Assembly (NCBI GenBank): GCA_016202645.1 | Contig: JACQOF010000108.1 | Coordinates: 1-31,182 of the forward strand | Direction: 5' to 3' | Length of the DNA: 31,182 nt | From: a bacterium | Lineage (GTDB): Bacteria > Lindowbacteria > 2-12-FULL-62-27 | In this document: one piece after another, positions 4,927 to 19,123 of the stretch | How positions within the stretch are numbered: the first letter of the stretch is position 1 | Layout: the number at the start of each line of letters is the position of its first letter | Notes under the pieces: model-generated | The model's input: the letters and a program-made list of their open reading frames with translations, nothing else | What the model was told of the DNA's origin: nothing | Database searches by the model: none | Translations under genes and position numbers: made by a program

Positions 4927-4955
4927 TTGTCATCGGCGCCGTCTTTTCCTACAAT
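4927..4955 (+). promoter_or_regulatory. Sigma-70-type promoter of pilT, probably leaderless
   Basis: TTGTCA at 4927-4932 and TACAAT at 4950-4955 are separated by 17 bases. The -10 box ends 10 bases before the ATG at 4966, which would place the transcript start within a few bases of the start codon. No Shine-Dalgarno precedes that ATG. The spacing suggests a leaderless or nearly leaderless mRNA. Confidence 0.65.
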
Positions 4956-4965
4956 CGCCCCTCCT

Positions 4966-6024
4966 ATGGACATGTCGGAACTGCTGCAGTATTCCATCCA
5001 GTACGGGGCGTCGGACATTCACCTGACGGTTGGCCAGCCGCCGATGCTGAGGATTTCGGGGAAGCTTCTGCCGAGCGGGTATGATGTCTTGACTGGGGCG
5101 GAGACCAAGTCACTCGTGTACAGCATTCTCACCGACGAGCAGAAGGCGAAGTTCGAGGAGGAGTTCGAACTCGATTTTTCGATCGGGATTCCGAACATCG
5201 CGCGGTTTCGCGTGAATTGCTTCCGCCAAAAAGGCAACGTGTCGGCGGTGCTCCGGACCATCGGAAACAAAATTCCGTCGGCCGAGGATTTGGGTCTTTC
5301 GGAGGCGATCTGCAATCTGGCGCGCCTGCCGCGCGGGATGGTGCTGGTGACGGGGCCGACGGGGAGCGGCAAGTCGACGACGCTGGCGGCGATGATCGAT
5401 CTCATCAACCAGGAGAAGGAACACCACATCATCACGATCGAAGATCCCATCGAGATCGTGCATCCCCACAAAAAATGCACCGTGAACCAGCGGGAACTCG
5501 GGTCCGACACGCACTCCTTTGCGCGCGCCCTCAAGGGCATGATGCGCGAGGACCCGGACGTGATTCTGGTCGGGGAGATGCGTGATCTCGAAACCATCGC
5601 GGCGGCGCTGACGCTTGCGGAGACCGGACATCTCCTGTTTTCGACTCTGCACACCCAGGACGCCGCGCAGACGGTCGACCGCATCATCGACGTCTTTCCG
5701 CCCTACCAACAGGAACAAATCCGGATTATGGTTTCGACGGCTTTGAAAGGCGTCGTCTCGCAGGTCCTCATTCCGCGGGCGGATGGGCAGGGCCGCGTCG
5801 CCGCGCGGGAGGTCATGGTCGTGACGGGCGCGATCGGGGCGATTTTGCGGGAGGGCAAGACCCACCAGATCTATTCGGCCATCCAGACCGGCGGCCAGCA
5901 GGGGATGGTGACGATGGACCAGAGTCTCGCGAAACTTTACAAGGACGGGCTCATCAACGCGGAGGACGCGCTGGCCAAGGCCACCAACATCCCGGATTTC
6001 AAGCGCCTGTCGGGAATGTCCTAG
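4966..6024 (+). CDS. pilT: PilT, type IV pilus retraction ATPase
   Basis: A 352-residue hexameric secretion ATPase of the PilT/PilU family, which powers retraction of type IV pili at the inner membrane. Seen: the N-terminal YGASDIHLTVGQPPMLRISG, Walker A GPTGSGKST (about 130-138), the Asp-box region IITIEDPIE, Walker B DVILVGEMRD (198-207) and the His-box FSTLHTQDAAQTVDRI. Length fits PilT rather than the longer PilB. The start is set at ATG 4966 (Met-Asp-Met); a TTG at 4927 gives 13 more residues but coincides with the -35 box, and ATG 4972 is also possible. The classic C-terminal AIRNLV motif of PilT is not visible, so a PilT paralogue such as PilU is possible. The next gene starts 9 bases after the stop. 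Confidence 0.94.
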   Translation: MDMSELLQYSIQYGASDIHLTVGQPPMLRISGKLLPSGYDVLTGAETKSLVYSILTDEQKAKFEEEFELDFSIGIPNIARFRVNCFRQKGNVSAVLRTIGNKIPSAEDLGLSEAICNLARLPRGMVLVTGPTGSGKSTTLAAMIDLINQEKEHHIITIEDPIEIVHPHKKCTVNQRELGSDTHSFARALKGMMREDPDVILVGEMRDLETIAAALTLAETGHLLFSTLHTQDAAQTVDRIIDVFPPYQQEQIRIMVSTALKGVVSQVLIPRADGQGRVAAREVMVVTGAIGAILREGKTHQIYSAIQTGGQQGMVTMDQSLAKLYKDGLINAEDALAKATNIPDFKRLSGMS

Positions 6025-6033
6025 GGACGGGCC

Positions 6034-6990
6034 ATGGACGCGGAGCGGCTGAAGCGGGTGCCGATTTTTTCCTCGATTGAGGATGGCATTCTCAATGACC
6101 TGGCGGGGATCGTCGAGGAAAAATCCTACGAGGCCGGCGGCACGGTGTTTCAGGAGGGAGACGCGGGCGACGCGATGTACGTGATTTTGGAGGGCGCCGT
6201 CAAGATCGTGAAGGTGATCGATCCGGTCAAGGGGTTGTCCAAGGATTTGGCGATTCTCTCCGCCGGGGATTTTTTCGGCGAGATGTCCCTCATCGACAAA
6301 AGCCCGCGGTCGGCGTCGGTTGTCGCCGTCGGCGCCGCCAAACTCGGCCGCGTGTCCGGTCAGGGATTCAGCGATCTTCTCCAGAAAAGCGCGATCACCG
6401 CCGCCAATCTGCTCTTTGGCATCATCCAGACCGTGAGCGGGCGGCTCCGGCAGACCAATACGGAACTCGTCACGCTGTACGAGACCGGCAAGACGGTCGG
6501 CGAGGCGGAACAGCTTCAGGACATCGTCGACGTCGTGTTCAAGCGGCTGCTGCTCACGGCCGGCGCGTCCCGCGGGATGTTTGTCCTGCGGAATGAATTG
6601 GCCGGCGGATTTGAAGTGCGCGCATCGGAGGGATTTCCGGCGGGATCCGACGCGCTCGCCCGGACGGTCGGGGACCATGGCCTGATTGGGCGCGTGCTTA
6701 AAGACGGCGCGGCGGTCTTGATTTCGGATATCGATGCTGACGAACGCTTCGCCAAAGACGACCGCGAAGGCTACGAATCCGCGTCGATGATGCTGGTGCC
6801 GCTTTGCGCCGAGGAACGGGTCCTCGGGGTTCTCGTCTACGGGCACACGGATAAATCCCGCTTCAGCCCCAACCACCTCAACCTCTGTCTCGGCGTCGCC
6901 GCGCAGACGGCCCAGGCCATCTTGAACGCGCGGCACCGGGAGGAAGAAGCGGCGCGCACGAAATTGCATCGGCATTACATCAAATTCTAG
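6034..6990 (+). CDS. Cyclic-nucleotide-binding domain plus GAF domain protein
   Basis: A 318-residue cytoplasmic signalling protein. Residues about 10-130 form a CRP-type cyclic-nucleotide-binding fold, with FQEGDAGDAMYVILEGAVKI and a phosphate-binding cassette FFGEMSLIDKSPRSASV. The cassette keeps the Glu (E83) and Arg (R92) that contact ribose and phosphate of cAMP or cGMP, so real nucleotide binding is likely. A linker helix (LYETGKTV) leads into a GAF domain (about 155-305) with SMMLVPLCAEERVLGVLVYG. There is no DNA-binding or catalytic output domain, so it must act through a partner. Sitting between pilT and the PHP-YcgR gene with a 9-base and a 10-base gap, it is probably in their operon and may tune pilus retraction in response to cyclic nucleotide; that role is inferred. 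Confidence 0.88.
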   Translation: MDAERLKRVPIFSSIEDGILNDLAGIVEEKSYEAGGTVFQEGDAGDAMYVILEGAVKIVKVIDPVKGLSKDLAILSAGDFFGEMSLIDKSPRSASVVAVGAAKLGRVSGQGFSDLLQKSAITAANLLFGIIQTVSGRLRQTNTELVTLYETGKTVGEAEQLQDIVDVVFKRLLLTAGASRGMFVLRNELAGGFEVRASEGFPAGSDALARTVGDHGLIGRVLKDGAAVLISDIDADERFAKDDREGYESASMMLVPLCAEERVLGVLVYGHTDKSRFSPNHLNLCLGVAAQTAQAILNARHREEEAARTKLHRHYIKF

Positions 6991-7000
6991 AGTCTGACGG

Positions 7001-9583
7001 GTGTTCGTCCACCTCCACAGCCACCTGACCGGGTCCATCTCCGACAGCATCATTACGCCTGAAGAGAGCGTGGCGTGGGCGCGGTCGGCGGGCGTTCCGG
7101 CGCATGCGGTGACCGATCATGGGAGTCTCACCGCTGTCTATCCGTTTTATCTGGCAGCGCAAGGTTCCGGCGTGCGGCCGATTTTCGGGATTGAAGCGTA
7201 TTTCGACGCGCACGAGCCGGGCGATACGATCCCGCGGCTTGCGCGGACTCACCTTATCCTTTTGGCAAAAAATATCCGCGGATTTCGAAATCTGGTGCGG
7301 CTGAACAACGAGGCCTGGGAGAAACGGTTCCGGCCGCCGCGGTTCGCCATGGTCAATTGGGACATGCTCAAGCGGTATCGCGAGGGCCTGATCTGCACGA
7401 CGGCGTGCGTCGGCGGGCCGGTCGGCGTGTGCGTCATGAACGGCCAGTACGAGCGCGCCGAGGACATTTACCGGAAACTGAACGATCTCTTTGGAGAAAA
7501 TTTTTATCCCGAAGTCGCGGCGCACCCGATTCCGGACCAGCCGCCGGTCAACCGCGCGGTCCTGGCGTACGCCCGGCGGAGCGGCCGGCCGCCGGTGCTG
7601 ACGAACGACTGCCATTATCCCCGGTCGAACGACTGGTTCATCCACAATCTCTACATCAAGACCAGCGGCAAGACTCCGAAATCGTTTTCCTACAACGCGA
7701 CCTGTTTTTATCTGAAACCGGCGGAGGAAATGCGCCGGACGGAATTCCCGGACGCTTTCGCGGACGAGACCCTACGGATCGCGGAAGTCTGCACGGCGGA
7801 TGAGGAACTCCGGGCCCGGCTGGAGAAGGGATTCGCCGCGCCGAAAATTTCGAGAGCGCTGTTTTTGTCGAAGCAAGTTCCGATCACGCCGCGGATGGCG
7901 GTCATGGACGCGGGGCGGGTGATGCGCCTGCCCGATCGAGTTCTTGCGGAAGCCGGCGGGCTGATCGGCGGCGCCGATTCGCTTGATGAAGCCCTGCGCA
8001 GGTCAGGCCGCCTGCGGGCGTTCGCCCGAAAGTTTCCCCTCGTGTGGAACGGCGCGAGCGGTCTTGAGGGACTGCCCCGCTACGTCGAGCCGGATTTTTC
8101 CTCCTGCGTCGACGCGGACGATGAGATGCTGTCGCTTCTGCCGGTGCGGACGGTGGAAGGCCTTACGGTGATCGATGTCGATGCGGCGATTCTCGGACGG
8201 CTGGGCGTGCCGGTCCGGCCGGCCACCCGGGCGGAACGCGGACCGACGGCGGCCGTTTCGGATTTTTTCGAGGGACTCCGGCGGTGGTGGAATGAAGACG
8301 CGCAGGCAGCTCTGCCGTTTTTTGAGCGGTCGGTCTCGGCGCGCGGGCCGGTCGAGGCCTATTTCCGGCTGGCCGACACGCTGGCCTCGGCTGGGAAATC
8401 CAAACTGGCCAGGAATGTGCTGGCGTCGCTGGCGTCAACGCACGAGAAGGTTGACCCGGCGCTGTCGGATCGTGCGCGCCGGGTTCTGGCCGCCCTGATC
8501 GGCGCGAATGATTCGGGGGCTGCGGGCGCCGTTCGGCGCCGCGGGTCGAAGTCTCCGGCGTTGCCCGTTTCCATCGACCATCTTCCGGATTTTTCCGCGC
8601 TCTATCTCAACGGCCGGCTCGGCCCGCCGGAAGTCCGCCGGGCGGTGGAGCTGGTGGAGGAACTCCTGGAAAATGACGTGGGCGTGGTGGCCGTCCGGGC
8701 GGACGCGCCGGCGTCACGCTCGGCCTGTTTCGCGCCGCTCCTCATCGGCCTCGACGCTTTCCTGCGCCGATACCGCGGCCGAATTTACCGGGTCGGTTCC
8801 GGCGGCGGACAGGGATGTCCAGTCCCCACCGCTCCAGTCTCAGAAATTTCCAGGACGGAAATTTCTCCATGGCGCGTTGGGGGCGGCCCGCTCATGGACC
8901 GGTGGTTTCCGGCGTTCGGCAGTGTCGGAGAAGTCGCGGCGACGATTCCGGCGGACCTTTCTCTCAAGTCCCGCCGCGCCCCGGAACTCGCGTTCCGGGC
9001 GGGGCCGGCAGGCCGGACCGTGCGGCACTCACAACTCATCCGCGCGCGGATTCGCCACGCGGTCCTCCGCGATCCGGGGATGAGGCGGTGGCGCCTGCCG
9101 GTGACGGACATTTCAGGCGATGGCCTGGTCGTGCGCGCGCCGCGGACCAAGATCGTTCCGGACAGAGTTCAGGTGGACCTGGAACTGGGCGCCGACGTCG
9201 CCCGTCCGGCGGAATCCCTCGCCGTCCGGGTTCTTTCCGGTAATTTCTGGCGGATAGATCCTCCTGAAACTTGGACCATCCGGCCGATGCGGCACGGCCG
9301 GCGCAAACGCTGCCGTACTCCGGCCCGGATGATCTCCTGCACGCCGGGCGGCGCGCCTGGCATTCACGAGGGCCTCATCACAGAAATCTCCCTGAGCGGA
9401 TGCGAACTGGAGGGCGGCGGGAAATTCGCCGAAGGTGAAAGCGCCGCGCTGATGATGCAAGACGACTTGGTCCTCGCGGTCTGGAAACTCCGCTCCCGCG
9501 CCCGAAAATCAATCTGGGCCTTCTACGACTACGAACCCGCTGTCCGGTCCCGCCTCTCCAGAAAATTCGGTCTGTCGCGCTAG
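7001..9583 (+). CDS. PHP phosphoesterase domain fused to TPR-like, STAS-like and YcgR/PilZ-like domains
   Basis: An 860-residue multidomain protein starting at GTG 7001. Residues 1-270 look like the PHP domain of DNA polymerase III alpha: FVHLHSH (2-8), TDHGSLTAVYPFY, GIEAYFD (63-69), HLILLAKNIRGFRNLVRL, LICTTACVGG and NDCHYPRSNDW. The His/Asp/Cys metal-ligand motifs are kept, so it may be an active phosphoesterase. No polymerase palm, finger or OB regions follow. Residues 415-500 are TPR-like helices (QAALPFFERSVSARGPVEAY). Residues 520-600 resemble a STAS fold (FSALYLNGRLG ... LLENDVGVVAVRAD). Residues about 680-765 resemble the YcgR N-terminal domain (LPVTDISGDGLVVRAP), followed by a PilZ domain (HGRRKRCRTP, ITEISLSGCELEGG), usual c-di-GMP sensors. 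The operon with pilT and a CNB-GAF protein suggests a signalling role at the pilus. PHP and PilZ calls are firm; TPR and STAS are tentative. Confidence 0.85.
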   Translation: MFVHLHSHLTGSISDSIITPEESVAWARSAGVPAHAVTDHGSLTAVYPFYLAAQGSGVRPIFGIEAYFDAHEPGDTIPRLARTHLILLAKNIRGFRNLVRLNNEAWEKRFRPPRFAMVNWDMLKRYREGLICTTACVGGPVGVCVMNGQYERAEDIYRKLNDLFGENFYPEVAAHPIPDQPPVNRAVLAYARRSGRPPVLTNDCHYPRSNDWFIHNLYIKTSGKTPKSFSYNATCFYLKPAEEMRRTEFPDAFADETLRIAEVCTADEELRARLEKGFAAPKISRALFLSKQVPITPRMAVMDAGRVMRLPDRVLAEAGGLIGGADSLDEALRRSGRLRAFARKFPLVWNGASGLEGLPRYVEPDFSSCVDADDEMLSLLPVRTVEGLTVIDVDAAILGRLGVPVRPATRAERGPTAAVSDFFEGLRRWWNEDAQAALPFFERSVSARGPVEAYFRLADTLASAGKSKLARNVLASLASTHEKVDPALSDRARRVLAALIGANDSGAAGAVRRRGSKSPALPVSIDHLPDFSALYLNGRLGPPEVRRAVELVEELLENDVGVVAVRADAPASRSACFAPLLIGLDAFLRRYRGRIYRVGSGGGQGCPVPTAPVSEISRTEISPWRVGGGPLMDRWFPAFGSVGEVAATIPADLSLKSRRAPELAFRAGPAGRTVRHSQLIRARIRHAVLRDPGMRRWRLPVTDISGDGLVVRAPRTKIVPDRVQVDLELGADVARPAESLAVRVLSGNFWRIDPPETWTIRPMRHGRRKRCRTPARMISCTPGGAPGIHEGLITEISLSGCELEGGGKFAEGESAALMMQDDLVLAVWKLRSRARKSIWAFYDYEPAVRSRLSRKFGLSR
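8842..8866. repeat. Perfect 10-bp inverted repeat inside the PHP-YcgR gene
   Basis: AGAAATTTCC at 8842-8851 and GGAAATTTCT at 8857-8866 are perfect inverted copies around a 5-base loop AGGAC. The element falls in the Gly/Pro-rich linker between the STAS-like and YcgR-like parts, where an insertion would be tolerated. It resembles in design the palindrome inside the EamA gene at 15356-15379. Confidence 0.7.
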
Positions 9584-9700
9584 CCGGCCCGGCCGGCGGC
9601 GCAATGTGATTGGCCTGGGACTGGGGCCGGGTATTGACAGTATTGACATTTCAATAATGTCAAGACCCGGCCCCATTCCACCATTCCACCACGGTGGTGG
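9583..9700. repeat. Cluster of three palindromes between convergent genes (REP-like, possible bidirectional terminator)
   Basis: Three inverted repeats fill the gap between the PHP-YcgR gene (+) and the membrane-protein gene (-). The first, 9583-9597, is GCCGGCC-C-GGCCGGC and overlaps the TAG stop. The second has 17-base arms at 9623-9639 and 9658-9674 with one mismatch (GGGGCCGGGTaTTGACA against its complement) around an 18-base loop. The third, 9686-9700, is CCACCAC-G-GTGGTGG. The strong stems between convergent ends could stop transcription in both directions, but no T-run follows, so an intrinsic terminator is unproven. The middle one looks like a REP element. Confidence 0.6.
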
Positions 9701-9704
9701 CGGA

Positions 9705-10661
9705 TCAATCAGTTTGATAGATCGGAACCAGGTAGACCTCTTCAAAATCCAGACCCGGCAAATCAAGTTGTATGTCCATTTCCCAGAAGACGGGCTTATC
9801 CGCGCTTAACTGCGTGGATGGAAGATCTGCCGGCGGTTCATAACTGATTTCAATCGGCATCCCGGGTTGAAAGACTTTGGGATTATCTAGGCGCCAGATC
9901 CCACACCATATCTGTTCGTGCACAAGGTGCGTGGAATGATGCTTCCCATGTCCATGGGATTCATACCACTCTTTAACGCATCGCAATGTGAATTGGCCTT
10001 TGCGTGCCCGGTCGATTCCATTGGCCGGATACCATCGGAGCGTCACGGGTCTGTCCATGCGATAAGGAAAATCGGTGAAGTCCAGACGTGAACCTCCGAA
10101 TTTCAACGTTCTGCCCAGAATGACAGAGGTCTCCCACCAAACAGCGGCCGTAATCAGATCAAAGACGATCACGACACACTTGACGAGCCACGGGCCATCC
10201 GCGCCAAACGCCAGGAAATTGAAGATGGAAAAAAAGAGCGTAAGAAAGAGAGCGGTCAGCAGCGATTTGACGAACTTGGACCAGCGGGGAACCGCGAACC
10301 CGCGTGTCTGCCAGTCATAGTCAGATAAAATCTTCTCGTGTACGCCGCCGCGCCGTATTTCCTGTCGGCGGCGATTCTCACGAAACTGGCGCCATGCCAT
10401 GCTCCAAACCGCCAGTCCCCCCAGCACAAAAACGATGCCAAACGCGGTAAGCACCCAATACGGTGCGTGGACAGAATTTGGATTCACGCGAATCACGCGC
10501 ATCCCGATCAAGGCAACCCCCGTGCCGGCCGCGACGAAGGGAATCCCGAATAAGAAGCCACCATATGACGGCAGGCCCATCTTTGAACCGCGTTGTTCAG
10601 TTCTTCCCGCGATCCGCTCGGGTTCGGCCCGCGATTCATATCGGTCCATATTCACATTCAT
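9705..10661 (-). CDS. Membrane protein with DUF3592-like features, unknown function
   Basis: A 318-residue protein, or 290 residues if translation begins at the ATG at 10580 (MGLPSYGGFLF). Two hydrophobic segments near the N terminus (FLFGIPFVAAGTGVALIGM and APYWVLTAFGIVFVLGGLAVW) are followed by a basic loop (RQFRENRRRQEIRRGG) and two more (LLTALFLTLFFSIFNFLAFG and WLVKCVVIVFDLITAAVWW). The C-terminal 130 residues are soluble and beta-rich (FWEMDIQLDLPGLDFEEVYLVPIY). This layout resembles DUF3592-type proteins, whose function is not known. The gene starts 42 bases after the stop of the cyclase gene on the same strand and may be its downstream operon partner. Neither start has a convincing Shine-Dalgarno, so the 5' end is uncertain. 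Confidence 0.75.
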   Translation of the reverse strand: MNVNMDRYESRAEPERIAGRTEQRGSKMGLPSYGGFLFGIPFVAAGTGVALIGMRVIRVNPNSVHAPYWVLTAFGIVFVLGGLAVWSMAWRQFRENRRRQEIRRGGVHEKILSDYDWQTRGFAVPRWSKFVKSLLTALFLTLFFSIFNFLAFGADGPWLVKCVVIVFDLITAAVWWETSVILGRTLKFGGSRLDFTDFPYRMDRPVTLRWYPANGIDRARKGQFTLRCVKEWYESHGHGKHHSTHLVHEQIWCGIWRLDNPKVFQPGMPIEISYEPPADLPSTQLSADKPVFWEMDIQLDLPGLDFEEVYLVPIYQTD

Positions 10662-10703: not shown

Positions 10704-13700
10704 TCAACCCAACAGCACCCGCCAGCGGGATTCGAAGGCCTGGCGGTCGAAGGGGTCCAGGGTTTCGGACATTTTTTCCACCAAGGATTCCGGGTTGCGG
10801 ATCGGATCTGGAGCGGGCCGGCCCGGCAGGCGGTTTCTCCAGCGTTCGGAGATGTCCAGCAGGATCGGCCGGAGGCCGCGGGGTTCGGCGATGGCCAGGG
10901 CGGATCGCCAGCTTTCTTCGGCTGTTCGGTAGTCATTTTGCCGGACCGCGATGTCCCCCGCGATGATGTCCGACCACGCCGCGTAATCCAGAATCTGCGC
11001 GGCCCGCGCGCGCTCGGCCAGACGGTCGCAGATGCCGGCGGCCCGAAGGCTGTCGCCGACGGCGCCGGTCACGCTGGCCAGCGGCGCCAGGGCCTTCACT
11101 TCGGATTCCAGAAAGCCCGTGACTTCAGCGATGCGCCGGGCCCGTTCGAGGTAGAAGACGGCCCGGTAGAAATGGTTCATCCCGAGCGCAGCCAGGCCCC
11201 GGTAGCGCCACAGTTCGCCGACCAGATTTTCTTCGTCGGTCTCCTTGAGATATTCGGCCGCCCGGTCTAGGCACGGGATCGCCCGGCCGTGGAGTCGCAT
11301 GCTGAGGTAAACCGCCGCCTCGTTGAGACAGGAATAGACGATCGAGCGGCGGTTTCCGATTTTTTCGCGGATCCGGAAGGATTCCCGGTGCAGGCGGATC
11401 GCGTCGCCGAATTCTCCCCGTTGCCGGTGGCATTTGCCCAGGCCGTCGAGGGCGTAGGCGACGCCGCTGATGTCGCGGATTTGTTTTGAAATGCGGCGAA
11501 GTTCCGTAAAGGCCGCCATGGCCTTCGGGAAATCGCAGATGACGGCGTATGAATTTCCGAGACTGAAAAGCCCGCGCGCCACGTTCAGGGGGTCCTTCAG
11601 GCGCCTCCGGATCCGGATCGATTCCTCGCCGCAGGAGATTGCCTGCCGGTAGGCGCCCGTGTACCAGTGCGCGACGGTGAGACTGTTGAGACATTTGGCG
11701 ACAGCGGCGTCGGCGCGAATGCCGCGAAGCCGCCGAAGGGCGGTCTCGGAATGCCGCCGCGCCTCTGCATGCCGGCCTTCCCGCTGAAGACAGATTCCCA
11801 CCGAATCCCTCGCGCGGGCGGCGCCGACCCGGTCGCCGGTTTTGAGATGGAACCGTTCGGCGGCGATGTAGTCGGCCCGCGCCTGCACAAACTGGCCGAC
11901 GTTTTTTCGCATCTCGGCGCGCCGGGCATGAAGATCCGCCCGCGTCCGGTCCGGGCCCGTTTTCTGCGCCCAAAACAGCGCGCGGGAATAATAGGCGATG
12001 GCGTCGGCGTTGGCGTAAACCGCTTCGGCGCGCCGTCCGGCCGCGTCCAGATGGACGACGGCCTTATCGGCCACGCCGGCGCGATCGTAGTGGAACGCGA
12101 GGAGGTCGATGTTCGGTTGCTTCCGCCGTTCCAGTCGTTCGGCGATGCCGCAGTGCAGGTTCCGGCGAAGCCCCGCCGGGAGGGCTTCGTAGATCGCCTC
12201 CTGAGTGAGGGCGTGCCGAAACTCGAACCGGCTCTGATCGAGCGGATGCACAAATCCGCCGGTCTCCAGATGCCCGAGAACTTCCCGAATCCGCGCCATC
12301 GGCAGGCGTATCGGGGAAACCGCCGCCAGAAGGTCCAGCCAGAAAACTTTTCCGAAAACCGCCGCGGCGCGGAGAACCTGCCGGTGGATTTCCGGCACGG
12401 CGTCGACGCGGCTGTGCAGAAGCGCTCCGATCGAATCGGGCAGGACTGTGTCCGCGCCGCGCTCCCGGATGAGGCGAAAAATTTCCGTCAGGTAGAAGGG
12501 ATTGCCGCCGGTCCTCGCGTGAATGTCTTTCAGCGCCGATTCCTTCACGACGCCGGTTCCGAGAAGCAGGCCTGCGAGGGTTTCCGTTTCCCGGATGTCG
12601 AAAGGTTTCAGATGAAGACGCGGAATCTGATCGCCCGGGAATTGTTCCGATCGGCCGGTCAGGATCACGTGCGCCGCCACGGATGGCGGCGTACCCGAAG
12701 CGGCACAGGATGTGCCGTTTGACGGAGGGTGCGCTGTCTCGTTCATTTTTCCGGCCGTAATTTCCCGGAATACATCCGCGGAATTGGCATCCATCCAGTG
12801 AATGTCCTCGAAGACCCAGAGGACGCGCCGGTCGGAATCAAGAATCCGGCGCAGGACTTCCTTCCGGCGCCGCATCGCTTCGCCGGGTTCAAGCCGGGGC
12901 GGCCGGGGGCCGGCGTTCAATCCCATGATTTCGGTCAGAAAGGAAATGTCTTTCGCCGGCGCGGTCTTGAGCGACCGGAGGATTTCGGCCGGCGCGGGAT
13001 CGGCGCCCAGGCGGAAGTAGTTCCAGAGCGCGCGCCGCCACGGGAAAAACGGGGCCGTCGCGCCGAACGGCAGGCAGTCCGCCGTGACCGCCCGGCCTCC
13101 CTCGGAAATCCAACGGTCCACGGCGAACCTCAGGAGGGTGCTTTTGCCGACGCCGGCTTCGCCGAAGAGATGCAGGAGAAACCCTTTCCCGGCCGAAAAA
13201 TTCATTTCGATTTCCCGGCGTTCCGCGTCCCGCCCGATCAGTTGCGTCGCCGACCCCACCGAGAGTGACGCCTGCTCGCGGCGGACGACCCGGACCGGCA
13301 CCGGCTCGGATTTGCCTTTCGCGGCGAAGGTTCGGCGTGGCCCCTCGAACCTCCCGCGGGTTAGGGCGAACGTGGTTTCGTGGACGTAGAGGTCCGACCA
13401 TCCGGCGGCTGACATGCACCGGGCGGCGGTGTTTACCGTGTCGCCCATGATCGTATAGACGCGGCGGCGCGGTCCGCCGACCAGCCCGCAAAAGGCCTGC
13501 CCGGTATTGACGCCAATCCGCTGTCTGAGCCGAAGACCCACCGCGGCAGGCAGGCGCAGAATTTCCCGGGCCGCGTCAATGGCCCGCTCCTCGTCGCGTT
13601 CGTAACTGACCGGCGCGCCGAACACGAGGATGATCTTGTCGCCGTGGTCGTAGAGATCGGACGCGAAAAAAAATCCGCCGTGCCGGGCCGCGGCCGCTCG

Positions 13701-14549
13701 GACACCGGAGAAATACGATTCGATCCGGGCGCAAATCCGGGCGTCCGGCGTTTCCCCCGCGCCGGCGCCCCGGACCGCGCGGTCGGCGAGAGGGCCGAGT
13801 CCTTCGACGTTGAGAAAAAGCACCGTGATCCGGCGCATTTCGGCCATCCATTCCGTCCTCGCGCCCAGAATGGCCTGCCGGGCGGCGACGGCTTCCGGCA
13901 GAAACCCCGCCATCCATCGGACGCGGTCGGCTGAAACAGCGCGAGCTCGGCTGTTCCTCGAACGCGGCTCCCCGCCCGCAGTGTGCTCCGCCATGCATTT
14001 GTCAAAAATGCCGGAAGACACAATCTCCCCGCGCGCGGCGGTTGACTCAAGCCGGGCCAGTTCGTTCAGGCCGCTTCCGAGTGTGACGTATTCTTTCCGG
14101 CCGCCGCCCAAATCCACCGTCGAACCGAGAACGGATCCGGCATGAAGCGCGACTTTGATCCCCAGCCGGACCGATCCCGAAGGCGCCTGAACTGCTTTCA
14201 TGGATTTTACGTGACGGAGCATTTCTTCGGCCGCCGCCCGCGCCCGCCGCGCCGCGCCGCCGGATTCGGCAAAATAAACAAGAAGCGCGTCGCCGCCGAA
14301 CCGCAGAACACTCCCGGCCTCGCGGTCGATGATCTCCAGGAGCGGCTCAAAACACCCGCTGATCTCCCGCGCGATTCGCTCGGCGCCCTCGGCGCCCAAC
14401 ACCGAAAACTTTTCGGACAGCGCGGTAAACCCGGAAATATCGGCAAACAAAAACGCCCCACGCAGAACCCCGGCCCCACCTGCCGGGTCGCGGACCAGAT
14501 GCTGGGGCAAATAGGCCTTGAGACCGTTAAATTCCTTAAGGGCCGACAT
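10704..14549 (-). CDS. Dual class III nucleotide cyclase, AAA/STAND-type ATPase and TPR protein
   Basis: A 1281-residue protein with the layout of mammalian soluble adenylate cyclase. Cyclase domain 1 (about 30-190) has FLFADISGFTALSEKF with metal Asp37, RFGGDALLVYF with Asp87, and GSGLNELAR with the transition-state Asn/Arg (162, 166). Cyclase domain 2 (about 240-420) has VLFLNVEG, where Asn247 stands in place of the first metal Asp, DHGDKIILVFG, and GDTVNTAAR (369-377). An ATPase module follows with Walker A GEAGVGKST (463-471) and Walker B WVFEDIHWMD. From about residue 840 to the end are TPR repeats. It probably makes cAMP, which the CNB-GAF protein at 6034 could sense. It begins 18 bases after the EamA stop. 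Family assignment is firm; activity, product and stimulus are inferred. Confidence 0.92.
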   Translation of the reverse strand: MSALKEFNGLKAYLPQHLVRDPAGGAGVLRGAFLFADISGFTALSEKFSVLGAEGAERIAREISGCFEPLLEIIDREAGSVLRFGGDALLVYFAESGGAARRARAAAEEMLRHVKSMKAVQAPSGSVRLGIKVALHAGSVLGSTVDLGGGRKEYVTLGSGLNELARLESTAARGEIVSSGIFDKCMAEHTAGGEPRSRNSRARAVSADRVRWMAGFLPEAVAARQAILGARTEWMAEMRRITVLFLNVEGLGPLADRAVRGAGAGETPDARICARIESYFSGVRAAAARHGGFFFASDLYDHGDKIILVFGAPVSYERDEERAIDAAREILRLPAAVGLRLRQRIGVNTGQAFCGLVGGPRRRVYTIMGDTVNTAARCMSAAGWSDLYVHETTFALTRGRFEGPRRTFAAKGKSEPVPVRVVRREQASLSVGSATQLIGRDAERREIEMNFSAGKGFLLHLFGEAGVGKSTLLRFAVDRWISEGGRAVTADCLPFGATAPFFPWRRALWNYFRLGADPAPAEILRSLKTAPAKDISFLTEIMGLNAGPRPPRLEPGEAMRRRKEVLRRILDSDRRVLWVFEDIHWMDANSADVFREITAGKMNETAHPPSNGTSCAASGTPPSVAAHVILTGRSEQFPGDQIPRLHLKPFDIRETETLAGLLLGTGVVKESALKDIHARTGGNPFYLTEIFRLIRERGADTVLPDSIGALLHSRVDAVPEIHRQVLRAAAVFGKVFWLDLLAAVSPIRLPMARIREVLGHLETGGFVHPLDQSRFEFRHALTQEAIYEALPAGLRRNLHCGIAERLERRKQPNIDLLAFHYDRAGVADKAVVHLDAAGRRAEAVYANADAIAYYSRALFWAQKTGPDRTRADLHARRAEMRKNVGQFVQARADYIAAERFHLKTGDRVGAARARDSVGICLQREGRHAEARRHSETALRRLRGIRADAAVAKCLNSLTVAHWYTGAYRQAISCGEESIRIRRRLKDPLNVARGLFSLGNSYAVICDFPKAMAAFTELRRISKQIRDISGVAYALDGLGKCHRQRGEFGDAIRLHRESFRIREKIGNRRSIVYSCLNEAAVYLSMRLHGRAIPCLDRAAEYLKETDEENLVGELWRYRGLAALGMNHFYRAVFYLERARRIAEVTGFLESEVKALAPLASVTGAVGDSLRAAGICDRLAERARAAQILDYAAWSDIIAGDIAVRQNDYRTAEESWRSALAIAEPRGLRPILLDISERWRNRLPGRPAPDPIRNPESLVEKMSETLDPFDRQAFESRWRVLLG

Positions 14550-16540: not shown

Positions 16541-16562
16541 TGACATCCGTTCCGGGATGTCA
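16541..16562. repeat. Short inverted repeat downstream of the PBP1A gene
   Basis: TGACATCC at 16541-16548 pairs with GGATGTCA at 16555-16562 around a 6-base loop, 3 bases past the PBP1A stop on the minus strand. It could attenuate transcription between PBP1A and the small ORF, but no T-run follows it. Confidence 0.4.
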
Positions 16563-16565
16563 AAG

Positions 16566-18635
16566 TCATTGCGCGGACCGGTGTTGAGTGCAGAAGAGTG
16601 TCGGTTCGGTGCCGACTTGGAAGGCGGCGGATCTCGGTTTGGGGCAGAATTCGGTGGCCAGTTCGCCGGTCTGGGTGCAGACGGAAAAAAACTGGACGTC
16701 GGGCGGGACGGGGAAATCCCGGGGCGCGGCGGTCACCAGCGCGGCCTGCATGAATTCCGTCCAGATCGGCGCGACCACGACGCCGCCGCTCATGCGGGCG
16801 CCGATGCTGAGCGCGTGGTCGTCGTAGCCGACCCATACGCCGCACGCGATTTCCGGCGTGTACCCGATAAACCACGCGTCCTTGAAATCGTTCGTCGTGC
16901 CGGTTTTCCCCGCGGCCGGCCGTCCAAAATGTTTTCCGACGTGGTACCCGGTGCCTTCCTGGACCGCCGCGGTGAGCATGTTGGTGATGAGGTACGCGAT
17001 GGTCGGCGATGCCGCTTCGCTCTCGATGGGCACGCCTTCCTCCAGCAGCGCCCCTTCGCGGTCGATGACCTGCCGGACCATGGCGTTCTCGGTGAGGGTT
17101 TCGTGCCGGATGCCGCCGTTGGCCATCGCGGCGTAGGCGGCGGTCAGTTCCAGGAGATTCACTTCGTAGGAGCCGAGGGCGAGGGCCCAGAACGGTTCCA
17201 GTTTGGAAGTGAATCCGAACCTTCGGGCGACGTCGATGACCCGCCGCGCGCCGATTTTCTCCATGAGCTTGACGGTGGCGACGTTCATCGACTTCATGAG
17301 GGCCATCCGCAGGGTGACTTCGCCGTAATATTCGTTGTCATAATTCGCCGGCGTCCAGTATTCCCCTGGGCGCGTGTGCTGGTAGATGGCCGGCGCGTCG
17401 AGGACTTTGTCGGACTGGGTCAGGCCGTTTTCGAGGGCGGCGATGTAGACGAAAGGCTTGAAGGCCGATCCCGGCTGGCGGAGGGACTGGGTGGCCCGGT
17501 TGTATTGGTTCAGCACGCTCCACTCGTTTCCGCCGACGAGAGCCTTGACGTCGCCGGTCTTGACGTCGATGGCCACGAGCGCGCCCTGCAGGGGCGGCCG
17601 CGGTTCGCGTCCACGGGCCGCGCGTTCCTTGGCTTTGACCTCGTCCCAGTGCGCCAGATGATTCTGGAGGATCTGTTCCGCCTGTTCCTGCATCCGAAGG
17701 TCGAGAGTCGTGCGGACTTCCAGTCCCCCCTTGTAGACCGCGTCGAATCCGTACCGTTTCGCGAGGTACTGCCGGATGACCTCCGCGAAAAACGGCGCGC
17801 GCACGGCCCGCATCTGCCCCCGTCGTTCCTGGATGGTGAGCTGGTAGGAACTGAATCTCTGCCAGAAATCCTCGATGGCCGGATCGACCTCGGTATCCGA
17901 GATGAACGCCTCCCGGGCCATGGCCTTGAGCACGTATTCCTGCCGGAGGCGCGCCGCCTGGGGGTGGCGGTAGGGATTAAAATTCACAGGAGCTTTCGGC
18001 AGGGCCGCGATCATAGCGGCCTCGCCGAGGAGAAGGTCCGTTGCGTGCTTCTGGAAATAAATCCGCGCGGCGGCTTCCACGCCGTAGGCGCCCTCTCCGA
18101 GATAGATGGTGTTGAGGTATCGTTCGAGTATCTCGGGTTTCGAAAACCGGCGCTCGATCCGGACCGCCAGCAGCGCCTCCCGGATTTTCCGGGAGATTTC
18201 CCGCTCGCGCGTGAGAAACAAAACTTTCGCCAGCTGTTGAGTGATCGTACTGCCGCCCTCGACCACGCGCCCCGATCGGACGTTTTTCACCATCGCCCGG
18301 AGAATCCCGATGAAGTCGACTCCGCGGTGTTCGTAAAACCGGCGGTCCTCCGACGCGAGAAACGCCTTGATCAGAGGGTCAGGCAGGTCCTTGAGCTGGA
18401 CGATTTCCCGTTTTTCCTGAAAAAACTCGGCGAACATTGCTCCCTGGGCGTCGTAAAGCTTGGTGGGCAGTTCCCACTTGGGGTCCGTGTAGTCCTCAAG
18501 GGGAGATATGTCGGGCAGGTCGTAAACCAGGGCCGCGAAAATGCCGAGGCTGATCCCGATGCCGGCGAAGAAAAGGCCGCCGATCCAGTTCCGGTATTTC
18601 CAGAGGCGGTTGCGGAATCCGCTATAAATTCTCAA
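16566..18635 (-). CDS. mrcA: PBP1A-type bifunctional peptidoglycan glycosyltransferase/transpeptidase
   Basis: A 689-residue class A penicillin-binding protein anchored by one N-terminal span (about 18-38). The glycosyltransferase domain has SEDRRFYEHRGVD with catalytic Glu96, GGSTITQQLAK (128-137) and RKIREALLAVRIER. The transpeptidase domain has SAFK (390-393, nucleophile Ser390), SMN (449-451) and KTGT (577-580). The tail carries spaced Cys (VCTQTGELATEFCPK), common in this group. It polymerises and cross-links peptidoglycan on the outer face of the inner membrane. Translation probably begins at TTG 18635, overlapping the yajQ stop as TTGA, which suggests coupling. All catalytic motifs are intact. 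A similarly long open frame on the opposite strand is only a by-product of codon composition. Confidence 0.95.
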   Translation of the reverse strand: MRIYSGFRNRLWKYRNWIGGLFFAGIGISLGIFAALVYDLPDISPLEDYTDPKWELPTKLYDAQGAMFAEFFQEKREIVQLKDLPDPLIKAFLASEDRRFYEHRGVDFIGILRAMVKNVRSGRVVEGGSTITQQLAKVLFLTREREISRKIREALLAVRIERRFSKPEILERYLNTIYLGEGAYGVEAAARIYFQKHATDLLLGEAAMIAALPKAPVNFNPYRHPQAARLRQEYVLKAMAREAFISDTEVDPAIEDFWQRFSSYQLTIQERRGQMRAVRAPFFAEVIRQYLAKRYGFDAVYKGGLEVRTTLDLRMQEQAEQILQNHLAHWDEVKAKERAARGREPRPPLQGALVAIDVKTGDVKALVGGNEWSVLNQYNRATQSLRQPGSAFKPFVYIAALENGLTQSDKVLDAPAIYQHTRPGEYWTPANYDNEYYGEVTLRMALMKSMNVATVKLMEKIGARRVIDVARRFGFTSKLEPFWALALGSYEVNLLELTAAYAAMANGGIRHETLTENAMVRQVIDREGALLEEGVPIESEAASPTIAYLITNMLTAAVQEGTGYHVGKHFGRPAAGKTGTTNDFKDAWFIGYTPEIACGVWVGYDDHALSIGARMSGGVVVAPIWTEFMQAALVTAAPRDFPVPPDVQFFSVCTQTGELATEFCPKPRSAAFQVGTEPTLFCTQHRSAQ

Positions 18636-19123
18636 CGGTAGTTGACAAACTGCAGGACCCGGCCGAAGTCGTTGGATTTGAGTTTCGCAATCACCGCCTG
18701 CAGGTCGTCCTTGCTCTTGGCGCTGACCCGGACGAGGTCCCCTTGGATCTGCGCGTGGACTTTCAGTTTCTGGTCCTTGATGTATTTCGTGATCGCCTTC
18801 GCCGTCTCCTCCGGAAGGCCCATCCCGATCTCGACCTCCAGTCGGGCCTCCCCGCTCGCCGCCTCGACGGGTTCGCCGAACGTGAGATTGGCGAGCGGCA
18901 CGTTCCGGCGGATCAGCTTTTGTTTGAGGACTTCCGTCAGCGCCGCCAGCCGGTTTTTGTCCTGGCCGACGAGCAGAAGTTTCTCCTTGTCCCGCGTCAC
19001 CTCCGCGCGGACGCCCTTGAAGTCAAACCGGTTCGCGACCTCCCGGCACACCTGGTCAACCGCGTTGTCGACTTCCTGCAGATCAACGGTCGAAACAACG
19101 TCGAAGGAACTGTCTTTCGCCAT
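18632..19123 (-). CDS. yajQ: YajQ-family nucleotide-binding protein
   Basis: A 163-residue cytoplasmic protein of the YajQ/DUF520 family, typical in length. Seen: KDSSFDVVSTVDLQEVDNAV at the N terminus, NRFDFKG, a central LIRRNVPLANL, and the C-terminal VRVSAKSKDDLQAVI and DFGRVLQFVNYR, all signatures of the family. Members bind nucleotides or RNA, and some have been reported to bind c-di-GMP, which would fit the PilZ and cyclase genes nearby. The start ATG at 19123 lies 7 bases from a promoter-like -10 box. Its stop overlaps the PBP1A start. Confidence 0.94.
   Translation of the reverse strand: MAKDSSFDVVSTVDLQEVDNAVDQVCREVANRFDFKGVRAEVTRDKEKLLLVGQDKNRLAALTEVLKQKLIRRNVPLANLTFGEPVEAASGEARLEVEIGMGLPEETAKAITKYIKDQKLKVHAQIQGDLVRVSAKSKDDLQAVIAKLKSNDFGRVLQFVNYR

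Follow-up and report, generated by a model that had tools for sequence, protein, structure and literature searches.

The window analysed here, a stretch of 31,182 nucleotides from a bacterium of the lineage Lindowbacteria (contig JACQOF010000108.1; genome G000), holds on its forward strand an open reading frame of 860 amino acids with a GTG start, present as the initial annotation stated. This gene, here called the PHP gene, is the last of a tight same-strand run in which it follows a pilT gene and a gene for a cNMP-binding/GAF protein, the three being separated by 9 and 10 bp (Table 1). We identify its product as a polymerase-less, DnaE-derived PHP protein, an anatomy that is well supported. 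A relative with the same architecture and 59% identity occurs in a genome of a sister genus (G001), and this orthologue was used for several of the domain assignments below.

Table 1 Genes, protein domains and inserted elements at the locus, with the evidence for each
Feature	Position	Strand	Evidence
PilT/PilU-family type IVa pilus ATPase	4927–6024	+	TIGR01420, 480 bits, over cut-off
cNMP-binding (CRP-like, FGEMSLIDKSPRSA motif) and GAF protein	6034–6990	+	Domain matches, motif
Polymerase-less DnaE-derived PHP protein with TPR, STAS and YcgR/PilZ domains (last two low-confidence)	7001–9583	+	Profiles, structure model, superposition, profile–profile alignment
DnaE-type PHP domain, aa 1–267, nine metal ligands intact	7001–7801	+	Pfam/NCBIfam matches, alignment of seven family members
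DnaE thumb/residual palm relic, aa ~284–410, palm core deleted	7850–8230	+	hhalign, VIA superposition, motif spacing
TPR-like helical repeats, aa ~411–500	8231–8500	+	Weak Pfam match and model
STAS-like domain, aa ~526–600	8576–8800	+	G001 orthologue model, region pLDDT 58–76; SpoIIAA Z 9.1
Dispersed palindromic DNA element, in-frame insertion, aa ~601–628	8804–8887	+	Absent from G001 orthologue
YcgR-N-like domain, aa ~662–761	8984–9285	+	VCA0042, MotI, MrkH and YcgR folds, Z 8–9.4, low-confidence G001 model
PilZ-like domain, aa ~766–860, R768xxxR772 kept, DxSxxG = E795xSxxG800	9296–9580	+	Pfam PilZ 22.1 bits on C-terminal slice, below cut-off of 22.5; motifs
318-aa membrane-protein ORF between PHP gene and cyclase	9705–10661	−	Absent from G001 pair
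Two-domain class III cyclase, AAA and TPR protein (soluble adenylyl cyclase/ADCY10-like)	10704–14549	−	Domain matches, catalytic residues

Pfam PF02811 (PHP) matches residues 4–175 (E = 1 × 10−35), and the domain is of the DnaE type because the NCBIfam models of DNA polymerase III alpha score well at residues 2–267 only (E down to 1.5 × 10−53). Both agree with the PHP motifs HLHSH, TDHG, GIEAY and NDCHY that had been read at residues 1–270, all of which are present. The nine positions that we take to be the metal ligands, mapped by motif order and DnaE numbering (H6, H8, D15, H40, E65, H84, C136, D203 and H205), are all intact, and the columns themselves are among those invariant in an alignment of the seven family members, at 23–31% identity across three phyla. 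Since the nine ligands are invariant in proteins as low as 23% identical, the PHP site appears to be under constraint; judged by these alignments, it is kept catalytically complete, and phosphoesterase activity is predicted. The loss of metal ligands, which the initial annotation had named as grounds for giving up an enzymatic role, is not seen. The ligand pattern HHDHEH[C/H]DH defines the PHP metal site in one published study (PMC12926913). It is very improbable that the protein is a non-catalytic scaffold in which the PHP metals serve folding and function lies with TPR, STAS and PilZ: a structural role has been argued for the PHP domain of E. coli Pol III, but that domain has several decayed ligands (PMC3666897), whereas all nine are invariant here at the divergence just given.

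Similarity to DnaE extends beyond the PHP domain. The AlphaFold2 model of the 860-aa protein is confident at residues 1–490 (mostly pLDDT 85–95), and its residues 1–407 superpose in VIA on residues 5–555 of E. coli DnaE with a Z score of 42.7 and an rmsd of 2.1 Å over 396 residues (24% identity). A seven-protein profile of residues ~284–411 aligns to DnaE in hhalign (probability 96.2, E = 2.7 × 10−9, score 68.7; 60 column-shuffled control profiles scored at most 22.9), and in genome scans, with TPR-only matches set aside, the same mid-region profile also matches ordinary DnaEs of 1,130–1,160 aa at the corresponding positions. Going by these profiles and the model, residues ~285–410 correspond to the thumb and what is left of the palm in DnaE, which makes the N-terminal half a DnaE with its palm deleted, not a bare PHP domain. 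This thumb/residual palm region had been missed by the initial annotation; its match to DnaE by hhalign was already visible with three sequences.

The loss of the polymerase can be read from motif spacing and content. From the PHP motif NDxHY to the thumb motif there are 98 residues here versus 231–245 in DnaE, and the ~135–145 residues that carry GPGRGS and the catalytic DxDxDF motif (equivalents of D401 and D403) are cleanly deleted. Of 25 DnaEs, 23–25 have the GPGRGS, DxDxDF and FDFLG-type motifs, the last two of which supply the three catalytic Asp residues of the palm, and all seven family members lack them, in agreement with the earlier statement that no polymerase follows the PHP domain. 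Similarity to DnaE stops at residue ~410 and gives way to the TPR region, which is weak in Pfam (E = 0.002, residues ~432–488) and a clear helical repeat in the model (pLDDT ~90); the fingers, clamp-binding and C-terminal domains are missing. The short spacing, together with the absence of the polymerase motifs from all seven proteins, therefore indicates that the palm core was excised and that the fingers and later domains were replaced. Because the genome carries a separate polymerase dnaE with GPGRGS and DIDL motifs (G000:C106), the gene in the window is a dnaE paralogue. A DnaE-type PHP domain without a polymerase could also mean that a dnaE fragment was misassembled, the case named by the initial annotation itself, or that it has decayed or is chimeric, but this is refuted by the independent dnaE and by seven open homologues from three phyla that share a comparable deletion and form one clade.

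These homologues were collected by searching 386 genomes (roughly one or two per family, several of them fragmented) using as queries the 860-aa protein in full and its segment linking PHP to TPR. Six relatives were found, giving a family of seven in three rare phyla: besides G001, they lie in G069 and G210, from one other phylum, and in G271 (two copies) and G134, from a third. Given this sampling of one or two genomes per family, the family may be wider than seven. The proteins of G069, G210 and G134 and one of the two from G271 (G271b) are ~560–600 aa long and end after the TPR. In a maximum-likelihood tree of PHP domains, the seven relics form one clade (100/100) apart from 26 DnaEs, and the other G271 protein, a fusion described below, groups with the window and G001 pair (99/97). 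A search of 195 genomes from the phylum of genome G030, run without a positive control, returned no family member. Two candidates were rejected: a contig match in L034 (Gammaproteobacteria) is a chance peptide in another frame, and a 539-aa frame in G059 (L030) belongs to an ordinary dnaE whose frame is truncated.

Beyond the TPR, the window protein and its G001 orthologue carry a tail of ~350 residues that was present in 2 of 60 genomes only, namely these two, and is absent from the other five family members. Pfam PilZ matches residues 767–820, scoring 16.4 bits when the full-length protein is searched and more, but still below the cut-off, when a C-terminal slice is used (Table 1). Pfam gave no PilZ match in the G001 orthologue and no STAS match in the tail, and a PDB profile search with the tail returned no match. 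An AlphaFold2 model of the G001 tail, built from two sequences, reaches a mean pLDDT of 49 (locally 58–77), and the STAS, YcgR and PilZ assignments are tentative for this reason. Searched with Foldseek, this low-confidence model gave MrkH, YcgR and MotI as best matches (E = 1.5 × 10−4 to 1.5 × 10−3), while VIA aligned it to VCA0042 (Z 9.4) and, over the region of pLDDT 58–76, to SpoIIAA (Z 9.1, 3.8 Å), with SpoIIAA and RsbS the best STAS folds. Based on these fold matches, the order of the tail is probably STAS, YcgR-N, PilZ. Of the TPR-, STAS- and two YcgR/PilZ-type domains described earlier, the TPR thus held up in the model and the other folds are suggested, with PilZ falling short of its Pfam cut-off; the outcome named as a counter-indication, a structure prediction lacking a PilZ fold, did not arise, as the low-confidence model suggests a PilZ-like one. 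An in-frame dispersed DNA repeat within the tail, at residues ~601–628, had gone unnoticed.

The RxxxR motif of PilZ is intact in the window protein and in G001 (R744xxxR748), yet the second motif, D/NxSxxG, reads ExSxxG in both orthologues, with Glu at the first position, so that c-di-GMP binding by the tail is plausible at most and, on motifs and model together, doubtful. Proteins with GGDEF domains were found in all seven genomes checked. As the tail is limited to G000 and G001 and the five other members lack it, c-di-GMP control is best described as a lineage add-on and is not supported as a core property of the family. The idea of an enzyme switched by c-di-GMP consequently survives as a fused YcgR/PilZ-like module and fails as a description of the family (tail in 2 of 60 genomes; ExSxxG).

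The pilT operon from which a role in motility or surface attachment had been suggested exists in the window as the tight run described above, but in the sister genus 18 kb around the PHP gene contained no match to pilT, to the cNMP-binding/GAF gene or to the 318-aa membrane-protein ORF. Where a wide, syntenic family had been named as supporting evidence, the analysis found a conserved seven-member family whose pilT synteny does not extend to G001. The initial annotation had proposed a PHP enzyme that is switched purely by c-di-GMP and controls pili or motility, which would leave the cyclase unrelated. The YcgR/MrkH-like folds, R768xxxR772, the tight pilT run and the GGDEF proteins in the genome favour this proposal; we consider it quite improbable, given that the tail is missing from five of seven members, pilT linkage is missing in G001 and the second PilZ motif is altered.

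The strongest functional clue is the neighbouring cyclase gene, which the initial annotation missed. Its product has two class III cyclase domains, an AAA_16 domain and TPRs, and both cyclase domains match human ADCY10. The pair of metal aspartates is retained in C1 (FADISGF, FGGDALL) and the Asn–Arg pair in C2 (GDTVNTAAR). In G001, the cyclase orthologue (56%) lies directly beside the PHP gene in convergent orientation, and the two genes overlap at their ends. In G271, residues 1–468 of the PHP protein are followed by residues 5–781 of the cyclase in a single open frame of 1,342 aa, which runs off contig C511 and continues on contig C294 (227-bp overlap, 99.6% identity) to a total of ~1,860 aa. 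The three best cyclase orthologues among the 386 genomes (at least 787 bits; next 437) are all in relic-bearing genomes. The cyclase orthologue of G069 is on a different contig from the relic, at a contig end, and G002, a member of the same GTDB family as the window genome, has neither a PHP relic nor a cyclase orthologue in an assembly that is 88% complete. Because sAC-like proteins are widespread (60 of 386 genomes), the presence of such a gene alone means little, and it is adjacency, fusion and closeness of the orthologues that count as evidence. For four of the seven members (G069, G210, G271b and G134), no cyclase gene adjoins the PHP gene in the stretch read, and G134 has no close cyclase orthologue. 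The known cases are only two of adjacency (G000 and G001) and one of fusion (G271). We regard the linkage of the PHP relic to the cyclase as well supported.

A defence reading was set aside. The cyclase domains match PycC models of the Pycsar system, but the protein as a whole belongs to the large sAC-like AAA/TPR type, which many genomes encode, and the Pycsar effector matches of the cNMP-binding/GAF protein cover its CNB domain, the cNMP-binding part, only.

Starting from polymerase loss, retention of the PHP ligands, a single-clade family and cyclase adjacency and fusion, as the sequences and models document them, we propose the following scenario. A DnaE paralogue lost the palm core, the fingers and all later parts, while its PHP site was kept, carried by the thumb and remaining palm and with a TPR region behind them. 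This PHP–thumb–TPR core may then have become a second-messenger enzyme paired with the sAC-like protein (two cyclase domains, AAA and TPR). Most likely, the PHP site would remove a product or by-product of the cyclase: either a cyclic nucleotide, making a writer plus an eraser, or pyrophosphate. The lineage of the window would have gained the STAS and YcgR-N/PilZ tail, which could place activity under the control of c-di-GMP or of a STAS partner. Gene order in this one genome suggests the upstream cNMP-binding/GAF protein as the likely reader and PilT, acting on type IV pilus behaviour, as the likely output. We see an even chance that a polymerase-dead, DnaE-derived PHP phosphoesterase and a class III cyclase work together, the former perhaps as phosphodiesterase or pyrophosphatase and gated here by c-di-GMP. 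In the bolder version, a replicative polymerase paralogue supplies the eraser, a phosphodiesterase or pyrophosphatase, of a cyclic-nucleotide writer–eraser pair, would represent a new, polymerase-derived class of cyclic-nucleotide hydrolase and, gated by c-di-GMP in one lineage, joins cAMP and c-di-GMP circuits; this is a tentative possibility.

Several observations weigh against this scenario. The DnaE PHP domains known so far are mainly 3′–5′ exonucleases, four of seven members are without an adjoining cyclase, and adjacency and fusion are known from two cases and one case, respectively. Gating by c-di-GMP has against it the Glu in DxSxxG, the low pLDDT of the tail, a PilZ score below the Pfam cut-off and the empty PDB profile search. 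Biochemical precedents speak for the scenario: pyrophosphatase activity has been reported for the PHP domain of E. coli DnaE (PMC4822814), and both cAMP and cGMP are hydrolysed by Sb-PDE, another PHP enzyme (PMC5460133), at low rates that weaken the precedent. The main rival explanation is that the polymerase-dead DnaE derivative is a PHP 3′–5′ exonuclease or phosphatase of DNA or RNA processing, its cyclase and PilZ links being regulatory or incidental. It can point to its nearest homologues, which are DnaE PHP exonucleases, to the DNA-handling thumb that has been kept and to noncanonical PolX and PolX-like proteins, which lost the polymerase and kept the PHP exonuclease or its site (PMC9226535, PMC12926913). 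However, nothing is left of the fingers or of the clamp-binding, OB and tau-binding domains, the partner in fusion and adjacency is a nucleotidyl cyclase and not a set of DNA-repair genes, and STAS and YcgR are signalling domains, and we judge a role in nucleic-acid processing unlikely.

With the C-family polymerase DnaE, the relic has in common the PHP domain with its nine ligands and the thumb/residual palm, whereas the palm core with the catalytic aspartates, the fingers and the clamp-binding, OB and tau-binding parts are missing, and TPR–STAS–YcgR or cyclase domains are found instead. PolX-like and noncanonical PolX proteins are likewise derived from a polymerase, with the PHP site kept and polymerase function lost, but they belong to the X family and are without signalling domains or a cyclase link (PMC12926913, PMC9226535), unlike the C-family protein here. 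With YcgR, MrkH and VCA0042, the tail has in common the RxxxR motif and probably the two-domain fold of YcgR-N and PilZ, although here the module sits behind a PHP-DnaE core, TPR and STAS, with ExSxxG replacing D/NxSxxG. Soluble adenylyl cyclase (ADCY10-like, C1–C2–AAA–TPR) has the same domain order and complementary C1/C2 active-site residues as the cyclase encoded in the window and the cyclase half of the G271 fusion, which differ in that a PHP-DnaE relic adjoins or is fused to the cyclase. Sb-PDE, the PHP enzyme with weak cAMP and cGMP hydrolysis, acts as an organophosphate diesterase, has a putative signal peptide and is not DnaE-derived (PMC5460133).

Among 5.39 million open-access papers, a search found neither PilZ and PHP domain together nor a fusion of adenylate cyclase with a PHP domain, in keeping with the earlier remark that no described protein is known to have this domain order. 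Large C-family surveys list PolC and DnaE1–3, and their accessible parts describe no palm-deleted DnaE group; within these sources, polymerase-less PHP proteins are known from the X family (PolX-like) and apparently not from the C family.

Together with the fusion, the compact cluster of PilT, cNMP reader, PHP protein and cyclase makes the proposed pairing of a DnaE relic with a cyclase testable. If it is true, an enzyme of DNA replication would have been repurposed for second-messenger signalling, and cAMP-type cyclases would gain a new class of partner enzyme.

The PHP gene carries a palindromic element of about 83 bp, inserted in frame, whose hairpins are formed by GGACAGGGATGTCC and AGAAATTTCC/GGAAATTTCT and which lengthens the protein by ~25–28 residues. 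At least 40 copies (78–96% identity) were found in the window's genome, several others of which also lie within long open frames, while the sister-genus PHP orthologue is without the element. In its in-frame copy in the PHP gene and the others in long open frames, it closely resembles the protein-inserting Rickettsia palindromic elements. The inverted repeat downstream of the gene (90% complementary, 4-nt loop) is possibly a bidirectional terminator or another repeat.

Features discussed in this section
Feature	Location	Remark
Palindromic element, ~83 bp	window 8804-8887	within PHP gene, in frame
Inverted repeat, 29 bp, GGACTGGGGCCGGGTATTGACAGTATTGA...	window 9618-9679	gap after PHP gene
Candidate gene, 694-aa open frame	window 16557-18641	
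Candidate alternative gene	window 16566-18635	opposite strand
Window genome's own DnaE	G000:C106:175811-176650 (L037)	
Second-subfamily PHP-TPR genes	L074:6742-8511; L075:7874-9607 (G271, G134)	polymerase-less
GGDEF protein gene	L036:4098-4832 (G069:C129)	convergent to PHP-TPR gene

Elsewhere in the window, the 694-aa frame had no matches in Pfam or NCBIfam; the opposite-strand frame is nearly as long. In the PHP-domain tree, the DnaE polymerase of the window's genome sits on a very long branch (2.33 versus a median of 0.57); despite this strong divergence it retains the PHP ligands and polymerase motifs.

In both G271 and G134, relatives from a third phylum, the second-subfamily gene is flanked by argC-like and acetate-kinase-like genes (named by N-terminal sequence), and across these two genomes its context is conserved and contains no cyclase gene. 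In G069, a relative from another phylum, about 0.8 kb and one ORF separate the end of the PHP-TPR gene from a GGDEF gene. The presence of this GGDEF gene hints further at a second-messenger setting.
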